The position numbers and the translations under genes were made by a program. A stretch of DNA of 64,000 nt from Cloeon dipterum (lineage: Eukaryota; Arthropoda; Insecta; Ephemeroptera; Baetidae), in assembly GCF_949628265.1 (NCBI RefSeq), contig NC_088790.1, positions 16,558,545-16,622,544 of the forward strand, written 5' to 3'. Below the pieces are notes generated by a model, which saw only the letters and a program-made list of their open reading frames with translations, was not told the origin of the DNA and did no database searches. This document shows, in pieces, positions 36,237 to 58,252 of this stretch. The stretch's first letter is position 1. Each line of letters starts with the position of its first letter.

Positions 36237-36527
36237 CACGTGCGCCGGCGAAATTGGCTCAAGCGAGGCGCTCCATAATGCAGACCTTTAACTTCCAGCA
36301 GACTCACACACAACATAACGTAATGTGCAATAACCTTAGTCTGGTGCTGGGCGGGCTGCGAGCGCGAGACGCGCATGGTTGTTAGTTCGGTGTCTGCTCC
36401 GCGGATGGCCCACGCTGGCAACACTCGCCGATCACGTGCACATCAACGGCGGGATTCGCCAGCCGGCTTTCTTGCTATCACACTCGCACAACGGACGGAC
36501 ACTCCCTTGGACGGGACGCCGCACGTG
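36237..36527. promoter_or_regulatory. cluster of three CACGTG E-boxes
   Basis: CACGTG at 36237-36242, 36433-36438 and 36522-36527, in a GC-rich island. This is the core site of CLOCK/CYCLE and other bHLH factors. Two single sites follow at 37414 and 38553. CACGTG also occurs at scattered positions elsewhere in the window, so only the local density is notable. Confidence 0.4.
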
Positions 36528-36546
36528 GCCGGACAGCGGGACTCAG
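36370..36546 (+). other. possible distal non-coding exon of nocturnin
   Basis: A GC-rich stretch ends in a strong 5' splice site (ACTCAG|GTGAGC at 36547). In the frame that would join the common nocturnin exon there is no ATG, only an upstream stop at 36383, so it could serve only as a 5' UTR exon. The ORFs in other frames are out of phase with nocturnin. Confidence 0.3.
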
Positions 36547-36559
36547 GTGAGCCGGACAC

Positions 36560-39050
36560 TGTCCCAATGGTGGCTGTGTATTCTGATCTTGCTCCTCGGC
36601 TTTTCGCACTGACCCACTAACCATCTCTGGTTGCTTCGATGGATTGTGGTGTTAATTGAGTTGGGTCATCAGACTCAACGTGTAGTTTGTTGCTCAGCGT
36701 TTGGGACGGTGACTTAACTTAAACTCTTTAGGGTTTCACTTTCATTGGGGGGCAAAATTTTCAAAAGAAAAGAGTGCAGGACAATAAAGATATTAAAGAT
36801 CTCTTTACTAACATATAATATGGGCCAAAATTATATGTATTAGCTATTTAATTTTTAATTAATTATTTACATTTATACTAGCTAAAAAACGATTGTGCGT
36901 TTTTTTATTCAATTATAAATTGTTTTTAAATTATTATTATTTAATTTTTAATTTATAACCATTTAAATAAAAGATTTTTAAATGTGTTTGTAATGATATC
37001 CTTTTTTTAAATATTCTTTAGTTTTTTTACTAATATAAAAACAGTTGTTATATAGTAAATAAATATATAGAGAGTAAGCCTATAGTTATATACTGAAATT
37101 AAATTATACTTACTGTTTCATCTGATGTCGTAGGAGGAGCATTACATACATTCAGAATTAAATTTAATCGCTAAACAACACCATATTATTTCGGTCTCCA
37201 AATAAATAGGTCTTTAATTCCCTTCGTTCTCCTCAAAGGAAATAAGACTTTTTGTTAATTTGGTTTGGTAAAAATCATGAATTTTTATTATTTTGTTGTG
37301 CACAAGACTTTGTAATTCATTTTCTACTGCGTATTATGGATAATTGTGTAAACAAATACGTTTAATCCAGTGCTTCTTAGGAGCATTGACTCATCCACGC
37401 ACTTTATTGCAATCACGTGGTTAGTTTCTCGCAGATTTAACATATCGATAGATACATGACTTACTGCAAAAATGCTATATTGTTGATCATTTTCTGCTTG
37501 AGTTCTGGCTTAGAAATTTCTTCACTTATTCAGATTACGAAACTACAGTTGTGTAAGTTCAGTAAGACGAATAATATATAGCGACTTAAACGCTCTTGTC
37601 ACGGTCAAAAGCGTAAAAGGAAAAACTGCGTCAAAAAGGCCCGCATATCAAAAATTAAACTCTATTAGCAATTCTTAAGGTTTGTCTAAATATCCTAATC
37701 TTAGAATGCGGTAGTATTTTTTAGCAAGTAATTAACACATAATTATAAACTTATTGACTTGAAGGATTTTCCTTTCGAGGAAGGCATTTCTGCTGATTGA
37801 ACAGTCGAATTTTTCCTCTTGTTTGAATGTTTAAATTTTATTTTCCTCGACATTTTTCTGCTCCAAATGGAGCCCTGTTTATGATTATTATGAATTTTAT
37901 TTATAAAATATTTTCATTATTAGATTGTTATTTTGACTGTAAAAATTATTTTAAAAAATGCACTTATTCAACAAAATAGCGTGCTAACCGAGTCATAAGG
38001 AGTTCTATCACCTAATAAGCTCTTTTTATTCGTAAATCCCCCGGTATGTGATCCTTTGAGTAAATTCTCCCCCTCCACGACAAGGATTGTATTTTTATTC
38101 CTACTATTTTACAGCACATAGCTTGTTTGGCCTATTGTTGGAAGTTTCAGTCGCAAAAATTGCTTTGACCACCAACCTTTCTGTATATTCTTCTCTGTGC
38201 TTCTCTGCTTTCACAATCTTTCACATTTAAAATTTTTTATTTTGGTCAGATCAAGAATGAATTTGCTTATTGCTTCTCTGCTAAAAAACGATTGAAATTA
38301 ATTAAAATTTTTGTTATTTTTGTTGCTCTAAAAAGCGAATTAGGAACTTTTGACTGTGTCTAAAAATTCACATTTAGGTCAAGGGCCATTCCGCCAATTT
38401 TAGAAACAGTAGCTTCTTGATCTATAATTATAGTTAAGCGGTCGAAAATTGCATTCTGGCTGATCAGCTCGCGTAGCAACAAACAGCAGTAAACATATTG
38501 TCTAGGAAAGAGCTTGAATTAGAATCCACCCACACCGTATAAAAGTATTTTACACGTGCTTTTGTACAAAATGATAATATTTAGTAATATAATTTTAACT
38601 TTGTGATTTCTTGATCGAGATTTTAAATCTTTCAGAATTGTATTATGTTTGCTATGCTTGAGAGTAATATTTTTAACGATACAATGACTCATAAAAGCAA
38701 ATGGCTGCTTGAAATTAAAATATTTGTCTAAAAAATAATGTAATTAATGGTCATCATTATTTTTTCAAATGAAATTACTAAAATAATATTGAACCTTGGG
38801 GCTTTTATTATAAATCAAACTTAATTGGTTAAAAACTTTCCTAAATTTTAAAAATAACTTAACACGAAACAGAAGATTTAATATAAAAAATATCTCAAGT
38901 GGATCCGATATGTAGTTAAGAAATAATATCATATTAAATTTAGTGCTGGGCGAGTAAAAAAATTCTGTTTCCTATTAACAGTTACCAGTTCGACCAGCAA
39001 ACTTCCTGAAACATTGACATTGAAACATTGTGTTTTGTTGCGCACAGGTG
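36560..39050. other. AT-rich stretch upstream of nocturnin, no gene seen
   Basis: No ORF or exon with recognisable content. It includes two isolated CACGTG motifs (37414, 38553). Confidence 0.55.
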
Positions 39051-39061
39051 CATCGGCAAGG

Positions 39062-39296
39062 TCAGTCCTACTGCATTGGAGCGAACAGAGAGCAAGCAGA
39101 AAGCCAGCAACGAGCGTCGACCGAGTCAGCTGATCAGCACCGCAGCAACCGAAAATGAGCGAGCCGCGCGGTGTGAGATAGAGCGAGCGAGTGAGTGAGT
39201 CGTCCAACGAGAGCGGGCAGCCAGCTTCGTGTGCGAATCAACGCAGACCTGAACCCTCGGCAGCCAACATAGGAGGCCTCGTTTGCAAGATCCAAG
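39062..39296 (+). other. non-coding first exon of nocturnin with initiator
   Basis: An insect initiator TCAGTC at 39062-39067 begins a GC-rich leader of about 230 nt that ends in a strong donor (TCCAAG|GTAAGA at 39297). It contains only a short uORF (ATG at 39153, stop after eight codons). Spliced to 51266 it would place the nocturnin Met at 51267 in a good context. It would give the short isoform beginning MGSFTS. Assignment to nocturnin rests on strand, splice site and position only. Confidence 0.45.
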
Positions 39297-40452
39297 GTAA
39301 GAAGACAGTTGAAGAACCTGCAATAATTTCACCTTGCACCTCTCGCAAAAGATAGCTAGCTACCAGTGTCCACACCGCGCGCTAACGAGCAGTTCATTGA
39401 CTCAAATAATGTGGATTAATTGACGCTATAACGTTTGTTCAAGACGAACAGTGGCTGTAAAAACCTTGATTTACGATTTTATTTACCGAGAGGCACTTTC
39501 CTGCTGCTGGAAAGCTGTTCTGCGAAGCTAAACGCAGCTAGAAATAAAATACTGACAATGAGAGAGATTTAATTGGTAGTTGATGAATTATTCACTCCAA
39601 TTAGAATAATCACAAATAGCTTGATTTAAATATAACAAATCAATCTAAAATCGTTTAGTTAAATTATAAAAATTAAAAATTTTATAAGACTTGAATAAAC
39701 TCTCCCAGCAACCTGCTGGAGCGAAATGTTTTCATAAAATAAAATTTAATTCGTGTAGACTTAACAGAAACGATTCCAACTTAAGAAGAAATTTCGAAAT
39801 TAAAATAAGGCGTAAATATTGATTTTTAGTTACCTAAAACATATAAGTTTGAGTTTTAATTGAATTTCCAAGGAAAAGTTTCTAGATTGATAATGGAAAA
39901 ATTACGCAAAAACTGTGCTGACGAGTAGAGTTGAAGTTAAATTAATGGCAATTGACCCACTTAATGCTTTTGTAAAAATTCTTAAAGTATACAATATATT
40001 TATCCCATTTAATTGAGCCGTTTTTTAAATCCAGTTTTTTAATTCGCTTATTTTGTAATTAATCTCAAAATTTAAACCTTCTCGTCCGCCTACCTTAATT
40101 TGTACCAAAAAATTGCCTTATTTCAATTAATTTTTGATACAATTGTTTTATTTTTAAAAGAGCATGCATGACAAAAATGCTCATTATTCGTTGCTCATGA
40201 ATAAGAAATTATTCATTTGTTTATTCTCTATTAGTAAATTATAACACATAAAATGACAATGTCGAAGGAATGAAAGTGAGAAAGGGCAAACAAAAATAAT
40301 ACATGTTATTTCATAAGTTGGAACTGGGTCGATATATTTGAATTAGAAATTCTCCAGATTATTTTCTTTTTGAAATATCTGATTTGAATTTGAAAATATT
40401 TACAGATAAAAGTTTCGCAAATTACTATTATTTTAATGTTTCCTCTTTCAAA

Positions 40453-40489
40453 CATAGGTATTATCCCATTAAATGGGATAATACCTATG
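40453..40489. repeat. perfect palindrome, 18-bp arms, 1-nt centre
   Basis: Arms 40453-40470 and 40472-40489 are exact reverse complements around the single base 40471. Partial copies of the right arm (GGATAATACCTAAT) follow as direct repeats at about 40489-40523. Confidence 0.95.
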
Positions 40490-40526
40490 GATAATAATAC
40501 CTAATGGATAATACCTAATGGATAAT

Positions 40527-40585
40527 AATAAACTCTGGTAACAATGAGAGATAAATTTTATCTCTCATTGTTACCAGAGTTTATT
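40527..40585. repeat. perfect palindrome, 29-bp arms, 1-nt centre
   Basis: Arms 40527-40555 and 40557-40585 are exact reverse complements around 40556. It begins 38 bp after the end of the first palindrome. A diverged relative of its right arm (TCTCT...ATTGTTTATTGTTTGC) occurs again near 40730-40762. Confidence 0.95.
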
Positions 40586-43500
40586 GTTTGCCTCCTAAAT
40601 GCTTTCCATTGTAATTGATTATATTAGGTTTGTTAAGAAAAACTCTATTTTCTTTTGGAAAATATTTTACAAATAAGCGTAAGAGGCACACACTACGTTA
40701 AGTTACAAAAATCAAGTGGAGTCCTATATCTCTCTTATTGTCAGCATTGTTTATTGTTTGCTAGCCGTATTAAGCGACAGAGTTGATGATTGCCAGCGAG
40801 GCTGCCGCGAATTAAAATCGGTCTCAAGGAGAGTCAGTGAACCGCTTGTTTGCCACCGCGGCAATGCACAACTAGATTGATTAAGTTATTGGTCTAACGC
40901 GCGCTTTTTACCAATGGTGAAATTAACGAATATCATTTTATTATCCTTGATGGGCGCTTTCCCTTCATTCTTGGCGCTAATTGCACACGACCTAATTTTG
41001 TCCGTCGCGTGCGAGGGATGAAAGCGTCCGCACAAACATGTGTGTGCAGATTGTGTTTTGGAAGCACGTCAAAACGCATTGCCAGATCATGCAATTTATT
41101 TAAGGCTGTGTGTGTTTCTCAATTTTCCAACAGTTTTGATTTTGTCCTCCGTGTGGAATGAAAACAAAATTATTTGCGATTGTTTTCCGGCTGAAAAACA
41201 GATTTATAACTGTAGGAAATACGTCAAAAATAGGATTTTTTTTTAAAGAAACTAAGAATTAATTTTTTGAATAAAAAATGCTGCGAATATTAATTTAGTC
41301 CCAGGAGATTATTTTTTTATTGTGCAACTGTGCGAAAATTCCACAGTTTAGCACAAGATTAGCCCGACGGTGACTTTCAATCCATATTTAGATTTGGGCA
41401 GCCGCCACTTTTGATGTTTTGGCCGCGAGCAACAATAATATTGCCGCGTGCCAAGTTGGCTGCCAAATCCGCTCCCTCTGCTCCGGCTGATAAGAAAGAC
41501 ACCGGGTTCGAAATCCGAAGTTCATTCCCGTACTCTTGGAGAATATAGCTCAATTTACTCCGCAGTTCAGAAGATTTAATTACGAGAGGTCGGCAGTTGG
41601 CAGCACTCGAACTCGCGTTTATAAACGTGACAATTTATCAAAAAATCTTAAACTGCGATGGGAATAAAACATAAACGCGTCTCTTCTATTATCCGTCAGC
41701 TTGGGTCACTGCAAATTACAGAGTGGTTGACCCGATCATTTGAACTCCCCCTTCTTCCAAGTGGGCCACGTTAGAATCAAAAGTAAACCTTGTCAAGGTC
41801 ATTTAGCTTTTTTTATCCTCACAACGATATGAAAGGATTCAAACCGTGATTGCTAATAGTCGTCTGATTAAATTACAAATTCTGACTCTAAGAGAACAGT
41901 TACAATTCCAGCGGATGCTGCTAAAGGTTCTAAACCAAATATTGCAAATTTTTGTTAACTTGCAAACACGGAGTAAAGAGATGAGTTTCTCAGAAAAGAA
42001 AAAAATCAGCGTAAAGATTAGGGCAGGTCAAAGAATAATTTATAAGAATTGATAGTATTCATTGAAACATATTTGACCCAAATAAGCTGTCCTCATTGGT
42101 AAATAAAAAAACTGTTTTCATCCAATTTTCATCAATAAAATTTCATTCTTCCTCATCAAACATTTTCTCGCAATTAATTTTAAGTTTCTTCTTTGTTAAG
42201 AAAGGATAAAAAAATTACTCTCAAAGAGCGGCCGCGAAGCCATGAAATTAAATGCAGTTTGTTCCTGTGGAAAGGAGAGATGGAAATAAATTGAATGCCC
42301 CGCTTGCTTTAGAGCAGATTTATATCTCTTGTGTCCGGTCGGCGATGGTGAATGAGATGAATGGTGTCACGGTCGTCCCCTTGTGTTTGTGCTCGCGGTG
42401 CTTCACTTTGAAGCATAAAATAAATCCATGCAAGTTTAGTAGGCACTGCAGATGCAATGTAAAAAAACTTCAACAAAAAATGTATTTATAGAGATGAAAG
42501 TCGTTCATTTCTGAATAATCGTAGGGGATGATCGCCTGTGAATGATTCATAGACAAGAAAGGAAACATTTATTTAAAAGCATTTTGAAACGATCACCTTT
42601 TTTGCACCGCAAAAAGTATCAAAGCTTTTTGCCGCAAGTGGCGTTATGCTAAACTTATCGGCCCGTTCGCAAGCGACATCTGTGGAGTTGCCACGTATTT
42701 CTCTGACGATCAGAGAGTGAGAGTTCTTAAATTGAAGGCTCTCGTCGCGTCTCTAAAATTAGAGCTGCGAATTTTATGTCCTTTTTAATTTACAAAAAAA
42801 AATGTAAATTAAAATTAAAATTGAAAAATATCTGCATCACTGCGGCATCACAAATTAGGCGTATTTGTTAAAATCTTTTTTAACTTTGAGATATTTTTGT
42901 GCAACCCGCCAGAATGCACTGCGTTTCCTTTTAAAATTCCTTTTGCCTTGACCGCACTATTGACAAAATAAGCGAGCAGGATCTGACGAACGAGAATTTC
43001 GAGCTTACATTTTCCGCTCGTTGTGCATGGCCCCGAAGTAATTAAAACTATTAAAGGGCGCATGCACAAATGACTAGCAGGAAAAGCATTTATGAGAGCC
43101 ACATTATCAAGCGACGCATTTGGATAATCACACAATCATGATGGGAAATTTCCAAGTGCGTCGTAAATTTTTAGCGGTCAAATTTTAAATAAATGTGGCG
43201 CATATATATGATATTTTAAATTGAAGTTGAACGCTTCAATATATAATGGAACTTTTAACCTCGTCACCACTCTACTTATAAAAAATTATGAAACTCATAC
43301 AAAAAACAGATTCTTTAGTTTTAAAAAGAATATTGTCATTCTCTTTACATTTTATGAGATGCAAAAAAATTTTAGGAAATGCATGACTGAGGAAGTGTTG
43401 GATCCAATTGGCGGAAATATTTGTTTATCACACTGAGCCAAATAAAATCGTCCCTCGAGCTGCCAATGAGACTCATTGTCAGGCGCGTCCGCTCGCTTTA

Positions 43501-43690
43501 ATTATCATCTGCCCGTGAGATGGGAGCCGAGGCAGCGTGTGTTTCGCGACTATTGGCACCTGGACGGCGGACTGAGTGCGTGTGTGCTACCTGCTGTGTG
43601 TGTGGCCGCCACTGCCGACAAGGTTACGGCCGTGATTATGTAAAAGTGAGCCTGCCGAAGAGGTGAAAAACGCCATCGACCCTTCCCCCA

Positions 43691-43735
43691 TATATATGGA
43701 CAAGGGCATCCGACCTGACCCGACCAGTGCACTTC
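43691..43735 (+). promoter_or_regulatory. TATA box of an alternative nocturnin promoter
   Basis: TATATAT at 43691-43697 in a GC-rich setting, followed about 30 bp later by CCAGTGCAC and TTCAG motifs that could act as initiator. It lies about 330 bp before the ORF pair at 44053-44324. A CACGTG E-box is at 43945-43950. Confidence 0.5.
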
Positions 43736-44052
43736 AGACCCGCGAACGGACCGCGTGCAGTTCTCTCGCCGTCGCGTTCACCGCCGTTTCGGTGCATTTT
43801 TATCGGATTTCATACCACCCAAGAAGGTACCAAATATTTTCGCATTTAAATTCGAAAGAAAATTAATTATTCCGCTGGCAAGGCACCCTTTCATTCTCCC
43901 CGCCACTGTCGTTCATACATATGCAAATTAGCCTGCAAAGTGAGCACGTGTGTGTCGGGCAGTAATTTATTTGCTCGCGCTCAACTGGTCTGAATTTGCT
44001 TTTTAAATTGGATAAAAATCGCACCGAACGATAAAATCGGCTGTGGCCTAAA

Positions 44053-44157
44053 ATGAAAGTGTTGCTGGTGCTGCGTCTACTGCTGATCCTGACGACGCAC
44101 ACGGGGCCCTGCCTGGGCCTCTTCTGTCTGCTTGTGGGCCGCATCGTGCGCGACTAG
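44053..44157 (+). CDS. 34-codon signal-peptide-like upstream ORF
   Basis: ATG to TAG, 34 residues. It opens with MKVLLVLRLLLILTTH, a strongly hydrophobic leader. Its TAG stop (44155-44157) is directly followed by an in-frame ATG (44158) that opens alternative exon A of nocturnin. It could be a regulatory uORF with reinitiation, or readthrough could add a membrane or secretory leader. An assembly error or a null allele at the TAG cannot be excluded. Confidence 0.4.
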   Translation: MKVLLVLRLLLILTTHTGPCLGLFCLLVGRIVRD

Positions 44158-44324
44158 ATGGCCCAACTAAAGGAGGCGCTCGCCCTGGCCGAGCGGCTCG
44201 CGTCGGGGGCCGTCATCTCGCCCGCCTCCAAACGACGCTACCACTGCCTGGTCGAGCAGCCCGCCCCTGAGGCGCCTTCCCCGAAGTTCGTGCCACCCAA
44301 GCAACTGCTGCTTTATCTCGTCAG
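44158..44324 (+). CDS. nocturnin alternative N-terminal exon A
   Basis: It encodes 55 residues beginning MAQLKEALALAERLASGAVI and ends in phase 2 at a good donor (GTCAG|GTAAAA). The AG left over joins the G at 51266 to make Arg, followed in frame by the nocturnin Met-Gly-Ser. The product would be 428 residues. The first 20 residues form an amphipathic helix and KRR follows at 25-27. The high GC and the open frame up to the splice site support coding use. Not recognised by homology. Confidence 0.5.
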
Positions 44325-46298
44325 GTAAAAATAGATCCATCCGCGATCCTTGCCGATCGACGCTCTTCTTGCCTGTTGCGCGTTTCAAAGCGAGAAGCAA
44401 TTATATCAACTCCGACTCGGCGTCTACCCAGCGCTTGCAAATTTAATTTTTTAACAGATAAATGTGTGGAAGATTAAAAATTCATCAGGAGAAAAGACAA
44501 TTCTTGTAAAGTAAGAACTCAACAGGGAATTGTAGAACTGTAAAATTCAGACGATTGACTTTTCCTGAGCTTGCAATCGTTGCGAGACCATCAAATGAGT
44601 CGAATTATACACTTGAAGCCATTTGAACCAAACTTAAAATCGTATAAAACTCCCTAAACCATATAAAATGCTTCTAAAGTGCCATCTACATTATGCTAAT
44701 TTTTAGTTTTCTCAAGGTTTTATTTATATTTGAAAATCGTACCACATTACCTTTGATTTAATTTATTAGTTAAGCTGGAAAAATAAATAACTCCAAAATG
44801 TTTATTTTTTCAAAGGGGTATTTTTACCAGTGTTTTTTCTGTAAATTTGTGAACATAGGATAACTATCTCTTTAAGAAATTGACAAAATTCGAGATTTTT
44901 TAGTAAAAATGATATGCTACATTTGTTGCACTGATTTGCTATTCATATCTCTGCACAATTTATTAAAATTTTCAGCCCCTGACCTAACATATTAATAAAA
45001 AGTTTCTTAAGTCCAATTTAGAAATTTTCTCCTCATTCTTACACTCGGTCTATACATCATTCCATAAATTCCCGTAAAATAGGTGTAATGGAACATTAGC
45101 TTTGCTAAAGCATTTTATATTTAAATTCGCAATAAAAAGTCTCTTCTCCCTGATCTTTTGTTTTGTAAATTTTTACGAGGTCACTTTTATTAGGTAGGAG
45201 ATAAATATATATAATAATTGTTGCGGCTTTCAAATATAAGACGCAAAAAGGTATCTGTATATTTATTATTCCACCATGTGACCAATTCGTGATTCCATGC
45301 TGCTGTAATTAATTAATGATGCAGTCTCCTAATTTGGAGTTGCCTCTCACTCAGACACAAAACCGCCGAAAAACAAGGAGTAAAGTGGTTCTCCTTTACC
45401 TTTCACGGAACAGGGCCGAAAAACAATCGCAAACTTCCTGTATATCGAGAGAGGAGAAAAACAAAGGGTTTATCCTAATTGACAGCCGATATAGCCAGAG
45501 GACGAGAAAAACTAAGAGAAACAAACAGCCATAAATGATGTGGTTTGGATTTTCTAGAATATTAAATTTCTCAAAATTCGATAACAAAATTCGATCGAAA
45601 TGGACCTCTTGTAAATATTAGACCGAAAAAATGCTGAAAATTAAGTCTATTTTTCGCATTTTTGCAATCGTTTTTAAATTTTTGGTTGAAAATCAAACAT
45701 ATCAATATATCAAAAAAGCAAAATGCAATAAAAATTATTTATTTAACACATTACATTATAAATGTCATATAGAAAATGTTAAAATAATTGAACAAAAATT
45801 ACCGTTTGCGTAAATTATCTTTCAGAATATAAATGATAAAAATTGTGTATGTACTTATTTTGGAAATTTTAATGTACAAAACAGATTAGCTCTTAGATAA
45901 AATAATTTTTCCAATCTTACATAATTCTCATTTTTTTATTACTTTTAAAGTAACAGAAATTTGTATTTTCATGTTTTTTTTTGCTGTTACGCAAGATAAA
46001 TTATTTAACGTTTTCAATACACATCCTATAGAATCTACAGTGTCATAAGAGCTACTGAAAAAGCGCCTTTTAAGTTAATTTCACCAATGGTTAATCGTGC
46101 GAAAATGCTTTTGAAATTCTTAATTTGGTTAATTTGGCAATTAGGCAGAGCAAAAGAAAAAATATCGGCAGAATTAAAATAAATTTGTTCGAGACGTAGA
46201 TAAAAAAATGATCTACTGCGATTGCCAAATTAATGAAGTGTAGTGGCAGGCGTGTTAATTAAATTGCAGTGTGGTGGTGTGTTAAAGGCACCAGAGTA

Positions 46299-46372
46299 AT
46301 GTTGACGGGGGCGTACACGCGACTGGTGCTCAGGACGCTGGTGCTCCAGATGCGGCCGCGACCCCTCAACAG
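46299..46372 (+). CDS. nocturnin alternative N-terminal exon B (mitochondrial presequence-like)
   Basis: It encodes 24 residues beginning MLTGAYTRLVLRTLVLQMRP and ends in phase 2 at CAACAG|GTAAGC, again making Arg plus the nocturnin MGS start (397 residues in total). It has arginines at 8, 12, 19 and 21, no acidic residues, and alternating hydrophobics: the composition of a mitochondrial targeting presequence. Vertebrate nocturnin also has an isoform with a mitochondrial presequence. A possible 3' splice site (TTGCAG at 46264-46269) suggests it may be preceded by a non-coding exon. Confidence 0.55.
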
Positions 46373-46762
46373 GTAAGCGAACTTGGTTGAACACAAACCT
46401 ATCTCGGCGTTCGATCGCGCCGCTTTCAAACGCAAATTCGGACGCGGCACCGAGGGCGTGGCCCCGCGGCTGTGTCCTTTTCGTGTTCTCGCGACGCGCC
46501 GGGGTTTCACCTTCGTTCCGTCCGTCAATGGGCGCACAAATTGAAAAGAGCCAGGCAAAAAACTTTTGCGCAGCACGCGCCACACTTGTCTTAAAAGCGG
46601 GCTGAAGCGCCTCCGTGACCATATACCTGTGTGTGTGCCTCCGTCGCAGCCGCACTCACTGTCACAGCCATTGTCTGTGCGGCACTCGGAAATCTCGGTT
46701 TGCTTTTGCTGCCAGTGCAGAGCAACTCGTGCGTTGACGCGGCCAACAACTGACGCCAGACC

Positions 46763-46803
46763 ATGGAGAAATACAAGCTGCACAAGCGTATCATTCTATC
46801 CAG
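46763..46803 (+). CDS. nocturnin alternative N-terminal exon C
   Basis: It encodes MEKYKLHKRIILS and ends in phase 2 at TCCAG|GTAATA, joining to the common exon as Arg-Met-Gly-Ser (386 residues). The start has an excellent context (A at -3, G at +4). A pyrimidine-rich stretch and CAG at 46718-46720 could be a 3' splice site. Lysine-rich and without a clear targeting signal. Confidence 0.45.
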
Positions 46804-46814
46804 GTAATATCAGT

Positions 46815-49800
46815 GCACATTTAAAGAAAAATTTATAATTCAATTATATTGGTGAGTTTCTCCACAACTTTTGAGCACAAACAATTCAGTTTGTATAATC
46901 CCTGCTGTTATCAAAAGGAGCCAGCAGAATAAGCAGCAGTTTATTCTTTATTTCAACATCCAAAATAAAACCTGAAATTTTTATTTTGAAATTGCCATTT
47001 GCTCGTGGATTAAGGCCTTTTACTTCATTAGTTTGTGTAAATCAGTTAAAAAATGAGATTATAATTAAATAATGGGAAACCCCACAAGTTTGTTTCAGAT
47101 CTTTGAAATTTAGCTAAATTTTGAAATATTTACAATTTACAAACCTAGCATGAAATATTTAACCCTGTGAACAAGCAATTTTCTGAAGTAATGCTCCATG
47201 GTTATTAAGTTGAAATTTAATTAAATTGAAACCAATGAGTGCTTCTTCATTATTTTGCGTTTCAATATATTTTATGTATATTATGACTTTAGAAATTATT
47301 ACTTAAAGTAAATAAGAAACTTCTACTTACGTTATCAGCTCATTGTCAGCTTTTTCCTGCATTTGATTCTCAAACAATTTTTCCTTAATAAACAATTCCT
47401 CAATCATATATACACAAAATTAAATTTCAACTGACACATTTCCAGGCGAAATTAAGCTCGATTTTGACTCGCATACAATGAAACATCTCGGAATTCGGGA
47501 AATATGCGAAATCTGAATGCTACACGTACTTATTTTTACGTATTTTTATTTTGAAGCACACAATATTTATGTACACTTCCATGCCGGAAATTCCTTAAAG
47601 AAATTTTTATAAATGACAAATCGCAGCTCTAACGGACTAAAAAAATTGTACCATTATTAGACCAACTAAACTCGGAAAACTATTTCTGTCCGCAAATCTA
47701 TTATTTTCTAGTCTCGTGTGACGAAATTAAAAAAAACCCTCAATGGACTCTGCGAATACAAATTTTAAAAAATCCCAGATTCCTAAAGCTATTTGCTTTT
47801 TCTTTAATTTGAATGCCCTACATGTGGCAACAAATTTTGAAATGCTTTTTAGGATAGCGCTGCGACAGGCATGTTTGGAACCATTATTTTAGGAAGATGA
47901 TAAGTTGACCAACTATCTATCTGAGAAAAAGCTTTACCGGGCAGTTCCATCACACAACAAATGTGTTGTTGCTTTCAGATTTTAACGTTCATGAATTATG
48001 AAATATCTCTTAAAAACTATAAATTAAAAATATAGGGGAAAATTAATTTACAAAATTGATATTTCAATGGCTTCTCCCATAGTAAGGGGTGGCTAAAAAT
48101 TGAAATAATTGTGATAAAAAAAACATCACACATTCTCGTACTTCACACCGGCTTTTTTGGCCCCGCAGGCCTCATCAGCAGTACTTTTTAATTCCAAAAA
48201 GAGAGATTCGAGTTGTGAGTTTGTCATGATTTTGTTACTCGTTGGCTCTTTTCTTTTTGTTTGCGTTCACAATCAGAGACGAGTGCAAACAGATGTTTGC
48301 AACAATCGCAGCTAATACTGTCGTACAATTTTTGTTTTGGAAGTTCAGTACTGCCGAAACAGCTGCTGCATTTGCAATACAAGAATGTGAGATATTTTTT
48401 TCTTATACAAGAACATGGATAAGCATCCATTTTTAACCTTCGATTTATTGTTGTTCGCCATTGTAAAATCAAATTAATAATTTTTTATTTTCATGTCCCC
48501 GGCTAGACCCTGGGGACGTTTTATTTATTTATTTATTCCTCTTTCACCATATTATACATCAAAATGTACGTAAAAAAGAGTGAAAATAAGGCACTTGAAA
48601 AAGCAATCAGGTCGCTAAAACGTCGGCAATCAAAAGATAGCCGAGCCAAACTAGGCCTATGCTAAAACACTGTCACAAACAATTTTACCTATCAGTAAAC
48701 GGATTTTGGATTCAAATAAAGATTAGCGAGAAATCTGAATTTTTGACGTCAATAGAAATATTTAATGCATTTCCCTGGGATTGTCGCGTCAGTTTTCTCG
48801 CTCGGAAATCGATTTCGAGGGCACGTGTGTCAACACAATTGGAACGTCGCATTTCCTCTCTGCGTCTCGGCGGGATCAACCCTCTGAAAGGGGATTACAG
48901 CATCTCTGCTCCCTATTTCACTCGAATGCATGTTGCACCGGCGCAGCGCATTATTTTTAGACGCACGCGAGCTCTGGAAATAAGAGAATCTGTCGCCTTG
49001 CAAAAGCAGGCATTAGCTCCTAGATTTATTTATCTAATTGTGCTCGTGTTCACATTATGCAAAAATGAACAAGACACCGGTGACAAAGGCGAATTATTGC
49101 GCAATTGAAAGTGTAACACGAGAAGCCAGACGAAAAGACCGTAAAGATGCACGCAGCGTGACTATGTGTATGTTGTGCGAGGTGGGGAAACGGCACACGT
49201 GCAAACGAACGAACGGAAGAACCAACTTTGACTTTGAATCTATGCTCAAACGGAACGCATGCCGCGAGCTGTTGACGCAATTAAAATTTTTTTATCACTC
49301 ACAACCTGACGCAGAAAGGCAGTATTGTTTGCCGTGCAGTTCTAATCAGTTAATCCTTCGTTGGCGCACCAGGGTGGTCCCGCAATCATGTTTTGTTTGT
49401 CGTGCGTTAATTCCGGAGCGTGCCAGGAAGTTTTAGCGAGGTCGAGTATCCATAATATTTTCTGCTCTTCGCTGAGGTCGCACAGGTTACTTGTGGTTTT
49501 ACAAACAGGAATATGTCACCATGAATATTAAAACATTTATGCTCTTTAGCGACTAAGAAAATCACAATTTTCTCAAGGATCGTGCATCGACGTTTTTGTA
49601 AACATTATAAATACAAAATCATCTCAGTTATTTTTAATAATTTTTTATAATTTGACTGTATCAGCGTGTGTTCCTTATCATTTTTATGTAATTTTAAAGC
49701 AAAAATTCAAATTGGGTTTTTAATAAGGAAATTCAAACTATCACAAAGTATAGCTAATTGCTAAAAATGTTTTTATGGATGGACGAGAAAGATTAATGCA

Positions 49801-51040
49801 TCCTAACAAAACATAAAAGGTGTAACTTTCTCACAATATTAAATTTTATTTTAATTATCAATTGATTATATTTTTGTTGATTGTTACGAGATACGGTCGT
49901 TGCCCTACTGATCCACAATAAACTCAATTTTTTATCTAGTCAACTACAACAAAAATAGATTAGAAAAATGAGTTAACTTCTTTCTACCGTTCTGTGGTTG
50001 TTTTGAATATCTGCGTGGTTAGCCTGCGTGATTAATAGATTTATTTCGCTGAAAACTTGGCCGACATTCGCGGAAACCGAGCCTCTTCCGCGGCCGAGAG
50101 TGAGGGCGAGCACCGAGCACAAAACCCAGTAGTGAATTCACTGCCAGTTAGCTGCAGAGGAGAAATTTCCCGTGGGTGATTCTGACCGCAAAGACTTTTT
50201 TGTCGTTTTTTATGAACGTCATTGCAATCAACTTTTTTAAGATGAACTTTCACGGAAAAAGGACATTTCCAAGAATCAAGTACAAACAACGTGGCAATAA
50301 ATGTTTTATATTCACTTCCTATTTATTTTATAACTGTAATACATGGTAATTGCTCTATATATTGCCTCGGTAAAAGTACTTGAGTACAAATTGAGAGAAA
50401 GGACAATTTTAACATAAATAAAAAAAGAAAAACTTTCCTACTATTTTCAAATACACGCATAAAATGAAACGTCCCCTTATTTTTCTCAAGATAAATTTCT
50501 TATTTCTTTTTGCATTCAACGGAGATGTAATTTTTGTAGCATTCATAAATTTGTTTCTGGTAAAGTCCGAAAGTGAAAAAAAATCTAAACTATACTATGT
50601 TTGATGAAAAAACTACTAATTTTTTTTATTTGAAAAAACTTGAATAAATTTGAATTTACTTGCACTTATGCGATGTGAATGCACCTTCTCTAATAATTGG
50701 GGATAAATTCGAATTAAGTTTTATTTTTAAAAATTTTAGATGTCTGAAAAATGCGTCGGTTAGGGGTTAAGTTTCCTTAACTCAATTTGAGAAAAATAGA
50801 CTTTTGTGTTTTGGTTCGGTATAATTTTGTAACGACTAGCCATGGACTGAATAATTTAATTTATTCTTAATCCTAGTTAATTTCCTGTCCTTTCATAAAC
50901 TGGCCAAAATTTTCTTTCTGTTTCAACTCTAAATATAAGAGCGAAATTAATTTATTAAAAGGGATCAAAATTGACTTCCTAAAGCAACGCGGATATATGC
51001 GCCACCGATAAAAGTATCACAAAATATTTATATTTCTATC
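46815..51040. other. long intron or intergenic DNA before the nocturnin body
   Basis: AT-rich, with GC-richer patches at about 48.75-49.45 and 50.05-50.25 kb. The 149-codon ORF at 48659-49108 has no recognised domain. A CRE lies at 48744-48751 and a TTTA repeat at about 48519-48538. Confidence 0.5.
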
Positions 51041-51049
51041 CATAATCGA

Positions 51050-51265
51050 GATCACGCTAGTGGCGGCGAGCTAGCCTCTTTTTGTTCTGGGTGGGAGCGC
51101 GACCGACGACGACTCCACCGCCGCCGCCGCCTCTTTCGCGAGCGGTGCGCGCGGTGACGGGCACGATGCTGGTTCACAGCTCGATCAGCTGGCGGCGCGC
51201 GAGCACCTTGGATTCTCTTGATTACGTATGTTGTTGAGCGCTGACCTGGCTGACTCGGCTTGCAG
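51050..51265 (+). other. GC-rich region just upstream of the common nocturnin exon
   Basis: A CpG-rich stretch with a CCG repeat (about 51117-51130) that may be a proximal promoter or 5' exon. A 23-codon ORF (ATG 51166) is out of frame with nocturnin. The CAG at 51263-51265 is preceded by a moderate pyrimidine tract and is the shared 3' splice site for the alternative first exons. If it is not spliced, an in-frame ATG at 51228 would add 13 residues. Confidence 0.4.
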
Positions 51266-51266
51266 G

Positions 51267-54200
51267 ATGGGCAGCTTCACGTCGGCGCCCAAGATCCTGA
51301 ACCAGGACCTGCAGGACAGCGAGGTGCACTTCCCGGAGCGGCTGTCGCGCGACCAGTTGCTCGAGAGGTGCCGTCGCGAGCAGCGCCACTTGCCCGTCAA
51401 GCGAGCCTTCCGGCCGTGCGCCTCGGGGGCGGCCAGCCGCGGCCTCCAGGACGGCGTGCGCCTGCTCCGCTGGAACGTGGTCAGCAAGCGGTGCGGAGAG
51501 GCCGCCGCCAGCCCGCACCACATCAGGGTGCTCCAGTGGAACGTACTCTCGCAGGGTGAGTTCCCCCCCCCCCCCCCGAAAAATATTAATGTGATTAAAC
51601 GGCTTTTCACGCACGCATATGCGTTGCCATGGTTCCAAGCGCTGTTAGTTAGCAAAGTTAGGATATTACTTAGTAATATAACTTAAATGTTCAAGAATGA
51701 AATATTTAAATATTAACGATCTGTCTCATATTTTTTAGAATTCGCAACGTTAAGAAATTCAAAATTCATGATATATTGTGTATCATAATTTTAATAGTTT
51801 AACATTTAATTTATTACTGTCGAACAAAACAGTTCGTTAAAATAATACGAATATTAAAGTACAGCATTTTATACAAATTCAAAATAAATCTATATAGCCA
51901 GACGATGATCTCTTACTGTTGGAATATGCAAGGGCTATAATTTTAAAATTCTTTGTTTGCGGGAGTTGAGATAGAAGTTGCACGCTGATAAGCTAGATTA
52001 AAACGATCATAAATTTTTTGTCAATGTGGTTACTTAATATGACTGAAAAAAATTTCCCTTAATGGGCTTTCCAGATTTGATAATTTCTCGAATTGGTCTG
52101 TTGTTGGTTTAAAATTTATTTAAACAAAATTTAAAGACCATATTTAAGTCAAGATAAGTGTTTTCTGTTGTAAAAAAAAACTAAAAATACTAAAAAATGA
52201 CATCTTTTTGTTTTTTAAATATTTGTTCTAAATTTCCAAGTAAAAACGGTCTAAACTAGCGGCTGATAGAAGAGTGCAATAATCAAAAATTTTATTTGCT
52301 ATTGTCTAGCTTATCCTGTGTAAATCAGTTCAGATGGAAGCAATTTCCCTGGATTGTGAGATATTTATTTTGAAGGATGGGCAGCTCATGTTTCAAATGG
52401 CAAAATATTAAATTTTAAACAATGCGCACGTACGTGCTTTGGTTTATTGTTAGCAACACGATTTTCCATGCTTCCAAAGCATATTTAATCTTATCTTGTC
52501 TCTAATGCCTGCTACATTTAGCAAATCCGCAAACACAAATTTCCACATCATTTTGAAAAGGAAATTGCAGTAGTTATTAATTGTAACGAGCTATGCCTTT
52601 CCTGCGCTTAGTCACCCGAAACTCAAGTGATATCATACTTGCCAGAATATTTTCAAGGGTTGAGAGTAATGTGGTTAAAACAAGAAAAAAAACAATAATC
52701 TGATAGGAATTTTTGGCATTGTTCTTGTATTTTTCATCATAGGGAAGCCGGAAAAGTGCTGAATTGCAATTCAATGATGAATTTTAAATCTTTTGCTTAC
52801 AATCAGGAAAGACCCTGCAACTTAATCCCCATTAAACATAATTTGAAATTAATTCGTGATACTACTTGTTCGTGTCGGCAGCTTTGGGAGAAATGAACGA
52901 CAACTTCGCCTGCTGCCCCGACGAGGCCCTGCAGTGGTCCGCTAGGCGCTACCAAATTGTCGAGGAAATCATCGAGTATTGCCCTGACATCATTTGCCTG
53001 CAGGTACGTGCACTGAAGGCTCCTCGGGCGCGCGTCTTACTTGATTTACAAATTGCAGGAAGTGGACCATTTCAAATTCCTGAGCGGCGCCCTCGCCACT
53101 CAGGGCTACACGGGCATGTTCTTCCCAAAGCCGGACTCGCCTTGCCTCTACATCCAGGGCAACAACGGCCCTGACGGCTGCGCCATCTTCTACAGAACGG
53201 ACAAATTCGACTTACTGAACAGCGAGAGCCGCGTTTTGGAAGTCTGGAGTGTCCAAAGCAATCAGGTGATTATCATTTCCTCATTTAAAAAGTCTGACCT
53301 TATTGATTTTAACAAACAATTTTGCCTGTTGTCGTGCAGGAATCTCTAGCTCAATTATATTTTTTATAGAAAGCCGAACGTTATTAATATTCATCTCTCG
53401 TTTTATTTTGAAAAATAAAACCGATTTTAAACTATATCAATTTTTAAAAAAATGTTGTAGCAAGTTGAATGTCTGATATGCGGTCAATGAGTGCTACAAT
53501 AGTTAAATACTAATCAATATGATTTTAAAAAAACTAATTAAAATAAGCAATCTATCATTTAAAAATTAAAAGAAAATTGACTTTGAGAGAGGCAGCAAAA
53601 ATTAGTAACAACAGATAAATGTCAGATTTGGTGTTGCACGCATATTGCGTTTAAAAAATACTGATTGAAGCTTTCTATCATTCACTGTTTGTATTAAAGG
53701 AGAAATTTCAAACCATGAGGTGATTTTATACCAACCTAAATTTAACCATTTACGCCATTTACTTAGCTTTTCAAGAGCAATAAAATGCCATTTTTATTTT
53801 TATTTAACAAAAAATGTAATAAATTTCTTTACATCTCACAATCAGGTGGCGCTTTTGGTCAATCTTCGCATAAAAGAGACCGGGCGCGAAGTATGCGTGG
53901 CAACGACGCACCTGAAGGCGCGCAACGGCGCCCTGCTGTCCACCCTGAGGGAGGAGCAGGGCAAGGACCTGCTGCGCTTTGTCGAGGAGCGGCGGCAGGA
54001 TAGGCCGTTGGTGCTGTGCGGGGACTTCAATGCCGAGCCCATCGAACCCGTCTACAAAAGCATCATGACGCATTCTTCTGGACTGGGCAGTGCCTACGCG
54101 AATGCACACGGCGGACAGGAACCTCCGTACACTACTTGGAAGGTATGGATTTATCAAGATTAAAATATTATTATTACTATTAAACTATCACTGCCCACTC

Positions 54201-55038
54201 AATCCCATTGAACAATCAAAATAAATTTGAATTTACTCGCAATTATTATTTTTCAACTTTTGTTGCTGGGACGTATTCTGAAAGTTTATATTTTTTTTAT
54301 ACAATTATGATTTCTCACGATGTTTTCTGTTGCTTGAGAATTCCTTCTCTAGAAATTTCGAGTACATTTAAATTTTTATTTTTTTAATGTATCTTTCAAT
54401 AAGTATAATCGTTTTTCAAGGCACAATCGGATTTTTTTGCGAGTTAATTTGTAAGATTTTTAAAATTCTATATATCCCATTAATTTCTGTGCAGATTAAT
54501 TTTTTTTAATTTCTAGTTTCTATAGATTAATAAAGTACATAAGTATCGTAACACAAACATTAAGTCTGGATTAATGTGTGTACTTGTGGCGCGCAGTTTC
54601 ATTAGTGCCCTCCGACCCCTTAGCTCAAGCACGCAGAAGATTTTGATTTCTTTGCTGTCTCTCATGATTAATCGTCTCTCAGATACGATTACTCTCAGCA
54701 ACAATAAGAATAGATGTAATATAATGAAAAGTATCAATTTTTATGTCATATTAATAGGGGAAACCACCACAAACCTAATTTGAATGCTCTCTGCGTCCTA
54801 AACTCTATTCTAAATTATCTTATTTTAATTTCAGGTACGTGAGAGTGAAGGTGAGGTGTGCCACACGATAGACTATGTCTTCTTTTCGCAAAGAGAATTT
54901 GCCGTTGACGCAGTTCTCGACTTCCCGACGGGTGAGGAGATTGGTCTCGGAAGGATACCATCATTTATCTACCCTTCAGACCACTTCTCGTTAGTGTGTG
55001 ACCTCAGTTTCAGGGAGCAACGGGGAATGAGCTTGTAG
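51267..55038 (+). CDS. cu: nocturnin (curled), conserved body
   Basis: An EEP-family phosphatase regulated by the clock in animals. Vertebrate and fly nocturnin remove the 2'-phosphate of NADP(H); the fold is that of CCR4-type deadenylases. Exons 51266-51555, 52882-53003, 53059-53265, 53846-54142 and 54835-55038 give 372 residues from the MGS start. Catalytic motifs are all present: N92 in LQWNVLSQ, E138 in LQEVDHF, THLKAR (227-232), CGDFNAEP with D266 and N268, D318 in TIDY, and SDH (353-355). FPKPDSPC and NNGPDGCAIFY are nocturnin-specific blocks. The N-terminus MGSFTS fits the N-myristoylation consensus (Gly2, Ser6). The intron at 53004-53058 is only 55 nt. A run of 15 C follows the donor at 51556. 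Confidence 0.95.
51563..51577. repeat. homopolymer of 15 C beside a splice donor
   Basis: The run starts 8 nt into the intron after the first common nocturnin exon. Probably length-polymorphic and a source of sequencing error. Confidence 0.9.
51586..52881 (+). other. nocturnin intron, no gene seen
   Basis: AT-rich intron of 1.3 kb with no recognisable feature. Confidence 0.7.
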
Positions 55039-55630: not shown

Positions 55631-58252
55631 TTATGTCGAACGCCTCCTTTTCGTCTGCTTCTTGCTGGGTTTCTTGAAGGAGCCTCGCCTGGATTGCGAT
55701 ATTATGAGCAATCAAAAAGCCATGGAAAAATTGTTAAATCTGTGATTCTCACCAGACAAAGAAGAGGGCCGCTCCAGCGACAAAGACAGCGCACCCTACT
55801 CCAATCAACCCCCAACGGACGCCGTCCACGATGATGAGCTTGCTGATGAGCTCGTCTTTTAAAAGGTTGGTGTTCTCCTCGTTCAGGGTCAAGCCTTCGT
55901 TCACCCAGATGAGAGGGACAACGGCCACAGGCAGATTTTTGGTGATGTCAAAGTTTCGTATCTTCTTGATCATCATGTTAAACTGCACCCTTCGGCCGGC
56001 GCCAAGAGGAGCGCCAGAGAGCTGCGATTCATTCGAGATTAGAATTTGAGCTAAATTCTGAAATTTAAATCACCGTTTCGATATCGAGGTAAATTTGATG
56101 TTTCTCCTTGCTGGGAGTGAGGTTTTCAACCATTATTTCGTAGTCTGGCGCTTGATAAAAGTGAGGCATGGAAAGAATCACAGGCCCATCTGAAATTTTT
56201 AATTTAAGTACATCCATTTTGTAGCTTTGAAAAGAGTGGGGAAATTTCAGTTCTAAAAAAGCTGAGAATTTTTATCAGCATCAATAAATATAGTCATGTG
56301 ATGGGGCGATGCAGTTTTCTTAAAATAAAACCTGTGATTGATGTGGTCTTACAATTTCAAAACTGACACGATTAATTACAGTTTCTAATCTAATAACCCT
56401 GACTTTACACTACGATAATGTTTTCAAGCCAATGCCTTACTGAAACAAGGAAATAGATCCATGGCTCCCTCCTTGAGACATGCTCCGTTTGGAGGACAGA
56501 AGCAGTAATTTTCCGGCCGGGAAGACAAGTTACCAAGCTGCAACGCGTCCACGACGTAGCGGTAGCCACTTATGCCCTCGTGGCTGATTTCTTTGTCATA
56601 GCTCAGATAAATGCTCCTAGAAATGCGAAAGACAAATACTCTCACCTTATCAACTGCTGTATCTATTTAAAAATAAATCTAATATCAGAGAGAAATCGCG
56701 CGCGTACCTGCACAAATCAGTAGCGAACACGTAGATTTTAGTTTCCTTGTCCATAAAGGGTGAAAAAATAGTGGCGTCGCTTCCTTTGATAGCGTTGCAC
56801 TCATCCCCAGACCAAAACTTCAGGGTCGGCTCGTATTCCCACTCGACAATCTCCCCGACTTTCTTCACATCCGTCTTGCCAGTCAGCACCTTAAAGTGGC
56901 CGTCTGTTTTGTTGCTTTTCTGTATTCCATCAAAAATATAACCTTTTTGCTTATTTTAATTAAGAACGATCTCACGTGGTAGAAGAAAGAGTAGAAGAAG
57001 TTTTTGCTCTCATCGTCATAACGGATTGCGGGTGGCAATAATCCATTGTCGAATTGTCTTTTCATCTCGATGCAAACAAATTTCCAAAAAATGTTGGCCG
57101 TAATGGCCTCGCTGCCCTGGCACTTGATCAAAATTCCGTCGAACAAAAGGTCGCGAACCTTGACCTTCGTGAAGACGGATTCCGGATTATCAAAAAGGAA
57201 ATTGAAGCCCGCTGCCAATCCTGTCAGTTGCACTCCATCGTCCTCGATATCGGGAGTTAAAAGCACCCCCTAAATATTTAATTTTCATGTTTAGATAATA
57301 GTGATAAAGGGGAAGCAGGAGATGAGATATCATGTATTCAGCAAAAAATCTCATTTGTACCATTAAAGCTGCATTGAGCACTGAGACTTCGTCATCTTCA
57401 CTCAGAGTGGGACCCGAGAGCTCAGGACTATATTCAAAAAATGTTCTCTGCTCGTACTCGACTATGTTTCCGTCTTCGCTGAATTGGATGTTTTCCTTTT
57501 CTTTGTACTCACTATGAGAGCAAATTAATCATTTCGGATGTCGAAAATGAAAACGAATAAATTATTACAGATACACGTAAGGGCCTTTTTCTCTCATCTT
57601 TGGTTTTGCGCCGGTTGAGTGCACTTCTTCCGGATTTTCCACTTCCATGATGTGCACCTGGAATTCCATGGGCTGCGGTAGTTTTTGCCAATTCTCGTAG
57701 GACATGCTTGTGTTGGTAAGGACTATATTCTGCAGCAGAAATCATGGATTATTAAATTATGTAATTCTTTTAAAAGCCACTTTCGCGCTTGCTTCTTACA
57801 ATAGCTTGATTGCGAGAAACAGCGCACTATCGAGTATTTTAAGAAGGTTGAGATAAAATAAGTAAAAGGTACACGACGGAAATAATCTCTATCATCATCA
57901 ATCCCCGTACTTTTTATCACGCCAATCAAATCAATTATTTTAGAACATCTTATATAAGGTGACGATGTTAAAAGAATGAGATTTTGTGACAGCAAAAAAC
58001 TAATTTTTCATCCTCCTTAAAAATTATATTTTTAGATTACGATTTTAGATATTCAACAACAGAATCAACCTAATTGAAACCTAAAAGTAAACTAACCTTG
58101 ATGACTTCATCTTCGATGATGGACGGGAACAAGCCCCATCCCAAACCGGCGCCGAGCGCGACTAGGATAACCCCTAGGCCGGACACGGAGCCAGCAATCA
58201 CGATCTTGGTGCACATCGTGTCGGTGCCAAGGTGATTATGTCCATCGCTCAC
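55631..58252 (-). CDS. CD36-family receptor 1 (SNMP / scavenger receptor class B type)
   Basis: A two-pass membrane protein that binds lipids or lipoprotein-like ligands in its large ectodomain. Nine minus-strand exons: 58252-58097, 57729-57569, 57511-57361, 57269-56976, 56919-56708, 56616-56441, 56189-56074, 56021-55753 and 55688-55631. They give 530 residues with all phases closing. The N-terminal membrane segment is about residues 16-42. The ectodomain has MEFQVHIMEVENPEEVHSTG, KVRDLLFDG, DECNAIKGSDATIFSPF, TDLCRSIYL and the NYCFCPP...CLKEG cysteine cluster. The C-terminal membrane segment (GVGCAVFVAGAALFF) is followed by a basic tail (GSFKKPSKKQTKRRRST). The layout and size fit SNMPs and SCRB/Emp proteins. 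I cannot decide which subfamily without a tree. Confidence 0.9.

Follow-up and report, generated by a model that had tools for sequence, protein, structure and literature searches.

An intact nocturnin gene

We analyzed a 64,000-nucleotide stretch of the Cloeon dipterum genome (contig NC_088790.1, positions 16,558,545 to 16,622,544; hereafter the window, whose own positions are used throughout), which carries on its plus strand a gene for nocturnin, a clock-linked enzyme, and, in the long intron that precedes the gene body, several candidate first exons that could be joined to one splice acceptor. The gene body (51266-55038, +) is divided into five coding exons, and its splice sites are ordinary; in the lists, a slash marks the splice point.

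51266..51555 (+), exon 2, beginning at the common acceptor with a G followed by ATG GGC (MGSFTS...), the start of the short form; donor AGG/GTGAGT
52882..53003 (+), exon 3, nocturnin body
53059..53265 (+), exon 4, nocturnin body
53846..54142 (+), exon 5, nocturnin body
54835..55038 (+), exon 6, nocturnin body, ending at the stop codon TAG (55036-55038)

The exon 2 acceptor, the AG at 51264-51265, has a score of 3.34 (donor and acceptor scores come from approximate, untrained matrices). Translated from the ATG at 51267, the short form of the protein comprises 372 amino acids. Its closest solved structure is human NOCT (6mal/6bt1, E 1.6e-93), CNOT6L (4.3e-19), PDE12 (1.6e-16), and Angel2 (5.4e-15) being far weaker matches, and 152 of 282 aligned residues are identical to human NOCT (54%, catalytic domain). 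The Pfam match is Exo_endo_phos (3.2e-21). All 11 catalytic residues are kept (N149, E195, K219, H286, K288, R290, D324, N326, R367, D377, and H414 in human numbering), the list for human NOCT being that of PMC10779419. The structural match and the catalytic residues bear out the name that a sequence-only reading had given to this gene. The enzyme is intact, and from its sequence the gene at 51266-55038 is an insect nocturnin (curled), predicted to act as an NADP(H) 2'-phosphatase of the exonuclease-endonuclease-phosphatase family.

A protein search of the animal's own genome (190 Mb, E<=0.001) returned five matches, every one an exon of this locus; retrocopies of spliced nocturnin transcripts, sought in the same search, gave none besides these five exons. 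In two collections not meant for insects, no relative was confirmed among viral contigs (one pattern match) or prokaryote contigs (15 matches). The peptides MGSFTSAPK, YLVRMGSFTS, and MGSFTSAPKIL did not occur in the literature text searched.

Candidate coding first exons

Three open reading frames (ORFs), called A, B, and C here, lie in the intron upstream of exon 2.

44158..44324 (+), exon A ORF, MAQLKEALALAERLASGAVISPASKRRYHCLVEQPAPEAPSPKFVPPKQLLLYLV(R), 167 nt, phase 2, donor CAG/GTAAAA
46299..46372 (+), exon B ORF, MLTGAYTRLVLRTLVLQMRPRPLN(R), 74 nt, phase 2, presequence-like, donor CAG/GTAAGC
46763..46803 (+), exon C ORF, MEKYKLHKRIILS(R), 41 nt, phase 2, donor CAG/GTAATA

Each starts with ATG, has a length that leaves a remainder of 2 on division by three, ends in CAG/GTAA, and can be joined in frame to G51266-ATGGGC. 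The coordinates, start codons, ends, and phase that the sequence-only reading had assigned to them were exact, and each opens a single frame to the TAG at 55036-55038, giving predicted full-length forms of 428 (A), 397 (B), and 386 (C) amino acids. Exon A would add 56 amino acids and exon B 24 codons (25 residues with the junction Arg), while exon C is short and basic. The same reading had stressed that an Arg arises at every junction; this is correct but adds no evidence, because an AG/GT donor in phase 2 followed by G always yields AGG. The junction sequence, CAGGATGGGC, is identical for all three coding exons, and none of them contains an out-of-frame ATG.

Exon B is the best supported of the three: its donor scores 7.79, against 2.81 for both A and C and 4.5-6.7 for nocturnin's own introns. 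Its peptide contains five K/R and no D/E and has a muH of 0.35, a composition that we take as a suggestion, and no more, of a mitochondrial presequence. The start codon context is best in C (A at -3 and G at +4), while B has G and A has T at -3. Acceptors matching the strength of that of exon 2 were found neither in the 330 bp before A (43827-44158) nor in the 400 bp before B; with no comparably good acceptor just upstream, A and B look like first exons. Upstream of C, the acceptor at 46721 scores 3.48 (3.34 for exon 2), so that C may be either a first exon or an internal exon bringing its own start codon. A coding route from B to C, with 46372 spliced to the acceptor at 46721, was discarded because it would reach exon 2 in phase 1 and hence in the wrong frame.

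The intron is AT-rich, but each of the three ORFs is situated in a patch rich in GC and CpG. The stretch with A and the stretch with B and C each occur once in the animal's genome and hence are not known repeats. Upstream of A, there is a TATATA at 43691 and a TCAKTY at 43891; the same region (43636-43950) also holds TTATGTAA at 43636 and a CACGTG at 43945. The TTATGTAA motif is not enriched, with 11 copies in the window, a number reached by 12 of 100 shuffles. A candidate leader devoid of ATG was seen at ~43722-43826 (+), downstream of the TATATA, with a weak donor (AAG/GTACCA, 0.29).

Untranslated leaders and the short form

Two further candidates upstream of A contain no start codon for the nocturnin frame.

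39048..39296 (+), untranslated leader, donor AAG/GTAAGA; either a first exon (initiator-like TCAGTC, 39062) or an internal exon (acceptor before 39048)
36300..36546 (+), further candidate leader, 5' end undefined, GC 0.61, donor CAG/GTGAGC, two CACGTG

The donor at 39296 scores 6.33. The leader ending there holds a single ATG, out of frame, at 39155, and downstream of its last in-frame stop the MGSFTS frame contains no ATG. Because no ATG opens that frame, a transcript spliced from 39296 would start at the ATG at 51267 (A at -3, G at +4). The sequence-only reading had placed an untranslated exon at 39062-39296, and both its donor and its lack of a usable ATG stand; its beginning is less certain. 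The acceptor before 39048 scores 4.67, compared to 3.34 for the acceptor of exon 2, and the donor at 36546, 2.5 kb upstream of the leader in a GC-rich patch, is the strongest within 31.5-51.3 kb (7.94), so that 39048-39296 may instead lie within a longer 5' untranslated region, as an internal exon fed by 36546. None of the ATGs in 36300-36546 (36323, 36375, 36405) opens the MGSFTS frame at the donor at 36546, and those at 36375 and 36405, which are out of frame, would impede the translation of any transcript that begins upstream of them. As the sequence-only reading had proposed, the acceptor at 51264-51265 is compatible with three coding exons of matching phase and with one or more untranslated leaders.

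The short form begins with MGSFTS, which matches the MGXXXS myristoylation motif as well as a PROSITE-like pattern, and the protein is predicted on this basis to be N-myristoylated. A mini-intron at 51226-51265, following an ATG at 51166, was considered and rejected, as it would be 40 nt long and out of frame.

CACGTG E-boxes upstream of the leader number five in 2.3 kb (36237, 36433, 36522, 37414, and 38553, within 36237-38558). In the whole window, 17 were counted (shuffle mean 6.3; 0 of 100 shuffles reach 17). The motif is also enriched genome-wide (37 in 200 kb compared to 22.3 after shuffling), with a background maximum of 3 per 2.4 kb.

Chance expectation and coding bias

A loose search of the ~12-kb intron (donor score >=2.5, ORF >=13 codons, both strands, three phases) retrieved ten ORF-donor pairs, three of them A, B, and C. 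With a stricter donor pattern, MAG/GTRA, the plus strand of the intron (39297-51265) contains exactly three sites, those of A, B, and C, and all three close an open phase-2 frame. As a genomic background, we used 200 kb of the animal's own DNA (20 stretches read on both strands, without masking of real exons); there, 18 of 106 MAG/GTRA donors close a phase-2 ORF that starts with ATG and has >=13 codons. The resulting expectation is 0.54 per 12-kb strand, with a Poisson P of 0.018 for at least three and a P of 0.005 for three of three; three such hits are also present in 1 of 40 background ten-kb strands. For CAG/GTAA, 4 of 19 background sites are phase-2 open (Poisson 2.6e-4), and both of these donor patterns were picked after the three sites had been seen. 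The sequence-only reading had held three phase matches to be unlikely by chance. This argument is weaker than it was put there: 13 of 100 dinucleotide shuffles reach at least three phase-2 pairs in the loose search (mean 1.33), and, with the genomic background also considered, the count of phase-matched ORFs is only modestly beyond chance.

Coding bias in the correct frame of each ORF is a better argument than phase matching. With a bias measure trained on this single nocturnin gene, the observed value was reached by 0 of 5000 permutations for A, 0.8% for B, and 0.8% for C (nominal, per ORF). The GC fractions at codon positions 1, 2, and 3 are 0.59, 0.42, and 0.77 in nocturnin, 0.75, 0.45, and 0.82 in A, 0.62, 0.46, and 0.92 in B, and 0.38, 0.15, and 0.69 in C.

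Probable promoter choice and its alternatives

We consider it probable that alternative promoters and first exons feed the one nocturnin acceptor just before Met-Gly, so that the choice of promoter would set the N-terminus of the enzyme and thus probably its compartment. The open frames, their phases, and the motifs are there in the DNA; each exon junction into 51266 is a prediction, and we infer the transcription, splicing, and targeting of all forms. In such an arrangement, an untranslated leader would lead to initiation at the ATG at 51267, exposing MGSFTS and giving a myristoylated, membrane-bound cytosolic form, and only a leader without an in-frame ATG would leave the myristoylatable glycine exposed. 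Exon B would hide MGSFTS behind an Arg-rich, acid-free, presequence-like peptide and could yield a mitochondrial form; exons A and C would hide it behind other extensions, perhaps for further cytosolic or membrane roles. Because the coding exons end in CAG and are joined to GATGG, every mRNA would carry a good second start at Met-Gly, and with CAGGATGGGC at each junction and no out-of-frame ATG in A, B, or C, ribosomes that scan past the first ATG (leaky scanning) could make the short form from any coding-exon mRNA too, similar to human NOCT, where a single mRNA yields two forms (PMC10779419). If the junctions are real, promoter choice would decide, in an insect distant from Drosophila, whether the NADP(H) phosphatase is mitochondrial, held at a membrane by myristate, or otherwise extended, and separate roles in these compartments would become testable exon by exon.

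Several observations weigh against this interpretation. Besides the shuffle result, the donors of A and C are weak, and A has T at -3 and follows an in-frame ORF whose own ATG is in a better context. Neither a TATA nor a TCAKTY motif was found in the stretches scanned upstream of B and C. Of 1753 random ATG-started 25-mers from the same genome, 58 (3.3%) are at least as presequence-like in composition as B. In the goldfish gene, compared below, the junction of exons 1 and 2 is in phase 1 (GTG or GCA codon), compared to phase 2 here (AGG), so that the two splice sites may not correspond exactly (fish data from PMC10779419).

A more modest arrangement would leave perhaps two N-termini: one or at most two coding first exons would be genuine, B or A being the best candidates, and the others, C in particular, would be chance ORFs at cryptic donors. 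We give this somewhat less than an even chance. Shuffles under the loose donor threshold average 1.33 such ORFs, A and C both have donors of 2.81, and one background strand in 40 carries three hits; but the coding bias of all three ORFs is in the correct frame, all three are located in patches that stand out from the AT-rich intron by their GC and CpG content, and the ATG of C is in a good context. That no coding first exon of the intron is in use at all seems very unlikely to us: the weak donors of A and C are in its favor, whereas the coding bias in three ORFs, the donors in phase in three cases out of three, and the N-terminal variants known in fish and flies all speak against it.

The region of A allows another reading. 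An ORF of 34 codons lies directly upstream.

44053..44157 (+), upstream ORF, MKVLLVLRLLLILTTHTGPCLGLFCLLVGRIVRD then TAG, 34 codons, same frame as A

Its TAG (44155-44157) abuts the ATG of A at 44158, its coding bias is as strong as that of A (0 of 5000 permutations), and its product is hydrophobic and signal-peptide-like, with no Pfam match. Its TAG may be read through, translation may reinitiate at A, the ORF may encode a small peptide of its own, or transcription may start between the two ATGs. The real unit could then be 44053-44324, with readthrough of the TAG, or A reached by reinitiation, resulting in a form whose N-terminus resembles a signal anchor, or in a small hydrophobic peptide made separately. 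That both ORFs share one frame, are coding-like, and are separated only by a TAG abutting an ATG fits this proposal, as does the A at -3 of the ATG at 44053, compared to T at the ATG at 44158. It is nevertheless unlikely: TAG followed by A is not known to be a leaky stop context, a literature search for stop codon readthrough in Drosophila nocturnin returned no papers, and the problem of the upstream ORF would vanish if transcription started between 44053 and 44158. A bolder extension is quite improbable, namely four or five N-termini that include a secretory or endoplasmic reticulum-anchored one made by readthrough of the TAG at 44155-44157, with mitochondrial, membrane-bound, and endomembrane NADP(H) pools set by separate promoters, some of them near CACGTG clock boxes.

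It is less likely than the 44053-44324 unit, though not negligible, that the leaders ending at 36546 and 39296 belong to some other plus-strand transcript and that the short form starts in the patch just before exon 2, where an ATG at 51228 is in frame with MGSFTS if unspliced (MLLSADLADSACR-MGSFTS). The segment 51000-51260 is indeed rich in GC and CpG. However, the good acceptor at 51264-51265 would then go unused, the ATG at 51166 lies upstream of 51228 in a different frame, and the 39-nt extension from 51228 has a slightly negative coding score.

Neighborhood of the locus

Other features of the window surround the nocturnin gene. Downstream, CD36-family C-terminal exons at 55752-56027 and 59023-59298 (-; Pfam CD36 8.6e-18 and 4.1e-17) apparently belong to tandem scavenger-receptor genes. 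Upstream on the plus strand are a nuclear-receptor zinc finger (zf-C4, 4586-4765, 3.9e-26) and a TGF-beta ligand domain (28875-29165, 3.8e-19). A 195-amino-acid ORF at 30948-31535 (+) has no Pfam match above the cut-off (best ArsP_2, E 0.078); by eye, it looks glycosyltransferase (fucosyltransferase)-like.

Within the first intron, an inverted repeat at 40524-40588 has 32-nt arms that are 97% complementary around a 1-nt spacer and is possibly a small mobile-element remnant or a hairpin. A GC-richer patch of the intron (48659-49436, +) contains overlapping frames of 149 and 132 amino acids, the former with no Pfam match, and CACGTG at 48822 and 49196.

Comparison with known nocturnin genes

Switching of the N-terminus is already known for nocturnin in fish and Drosophila, and the arrangement predicted here would join them. 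In the alternative-promoter literature examined, we found no exon map of an insect nocturnin, only the statements on fish and Drosophila isoforms, and we do not claim that such insect maps are unpublished.

In human NOCT, one transcript or isoform is described, from which mitochondrial and cytosolic forms are chosen by translation start (PMC10779419 and PMC6542800). Here too, mitochondrial and cytosolic forms are proposed for one enzyme, with 11 of 11 catalytic residues kept, but the N-terminus would be set by alternative first exons instead of by the translation start. Drosophila Curled has six isoforms, two of them with a predicted mitochondrial signal, and its form H has 419 amino acids with the catalytic Glu at position 140 (PMC6542800). 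Curled thus resembles the present gene as an insect orthologue with several N-termini, some predicted to be mitochondrial, a comparison made at the level of isoforms. The catalytic Glu is residue 138 in the short form here, compared to 140 in Curled form H, an agreement that points to a start of form H close to Met-Gly.

The closest parallel comes from the noc genes of spotted gar and goldfish, in which three first exons are joined to one exon 2: 1a, with a mitochondrial signal; 1b, non-coding and leading to an MGXXXS start; and 1c, of 13 bp (MEVVA). The goldfish variants were partly shown by mRNA sequencing, and the MGXXXS motif is conserved in fish variant II and tied to membranes (PMC10779419). 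As in the fish, the alternative first exons here would converge on one exon 2 near Met-Gly, and B, the untranslated leader, and C would parallel 1a, 1b, and 1c, respectively. Exon 1c and exon C are both short and begin with Met-Glu (13 bp compared to 41 nt), whereas exon 1a encodes 60-65 amino acids compared to the 24 codons of exon B, and exon A has no counterpart among the fish exons. The goldfish variants were seen in mRNA, while those proposed here are predicted from genomic sequence alone. As the junction phases differ, we do not claim an ancestral splice site shared with fish. If the junctions are real, fish and insects would have in common a mitochondrial first exon, a myristoylated short form, and a short Met-Glu exon, which would hint that the choice of N-terminus is an old feature of nocturnin.

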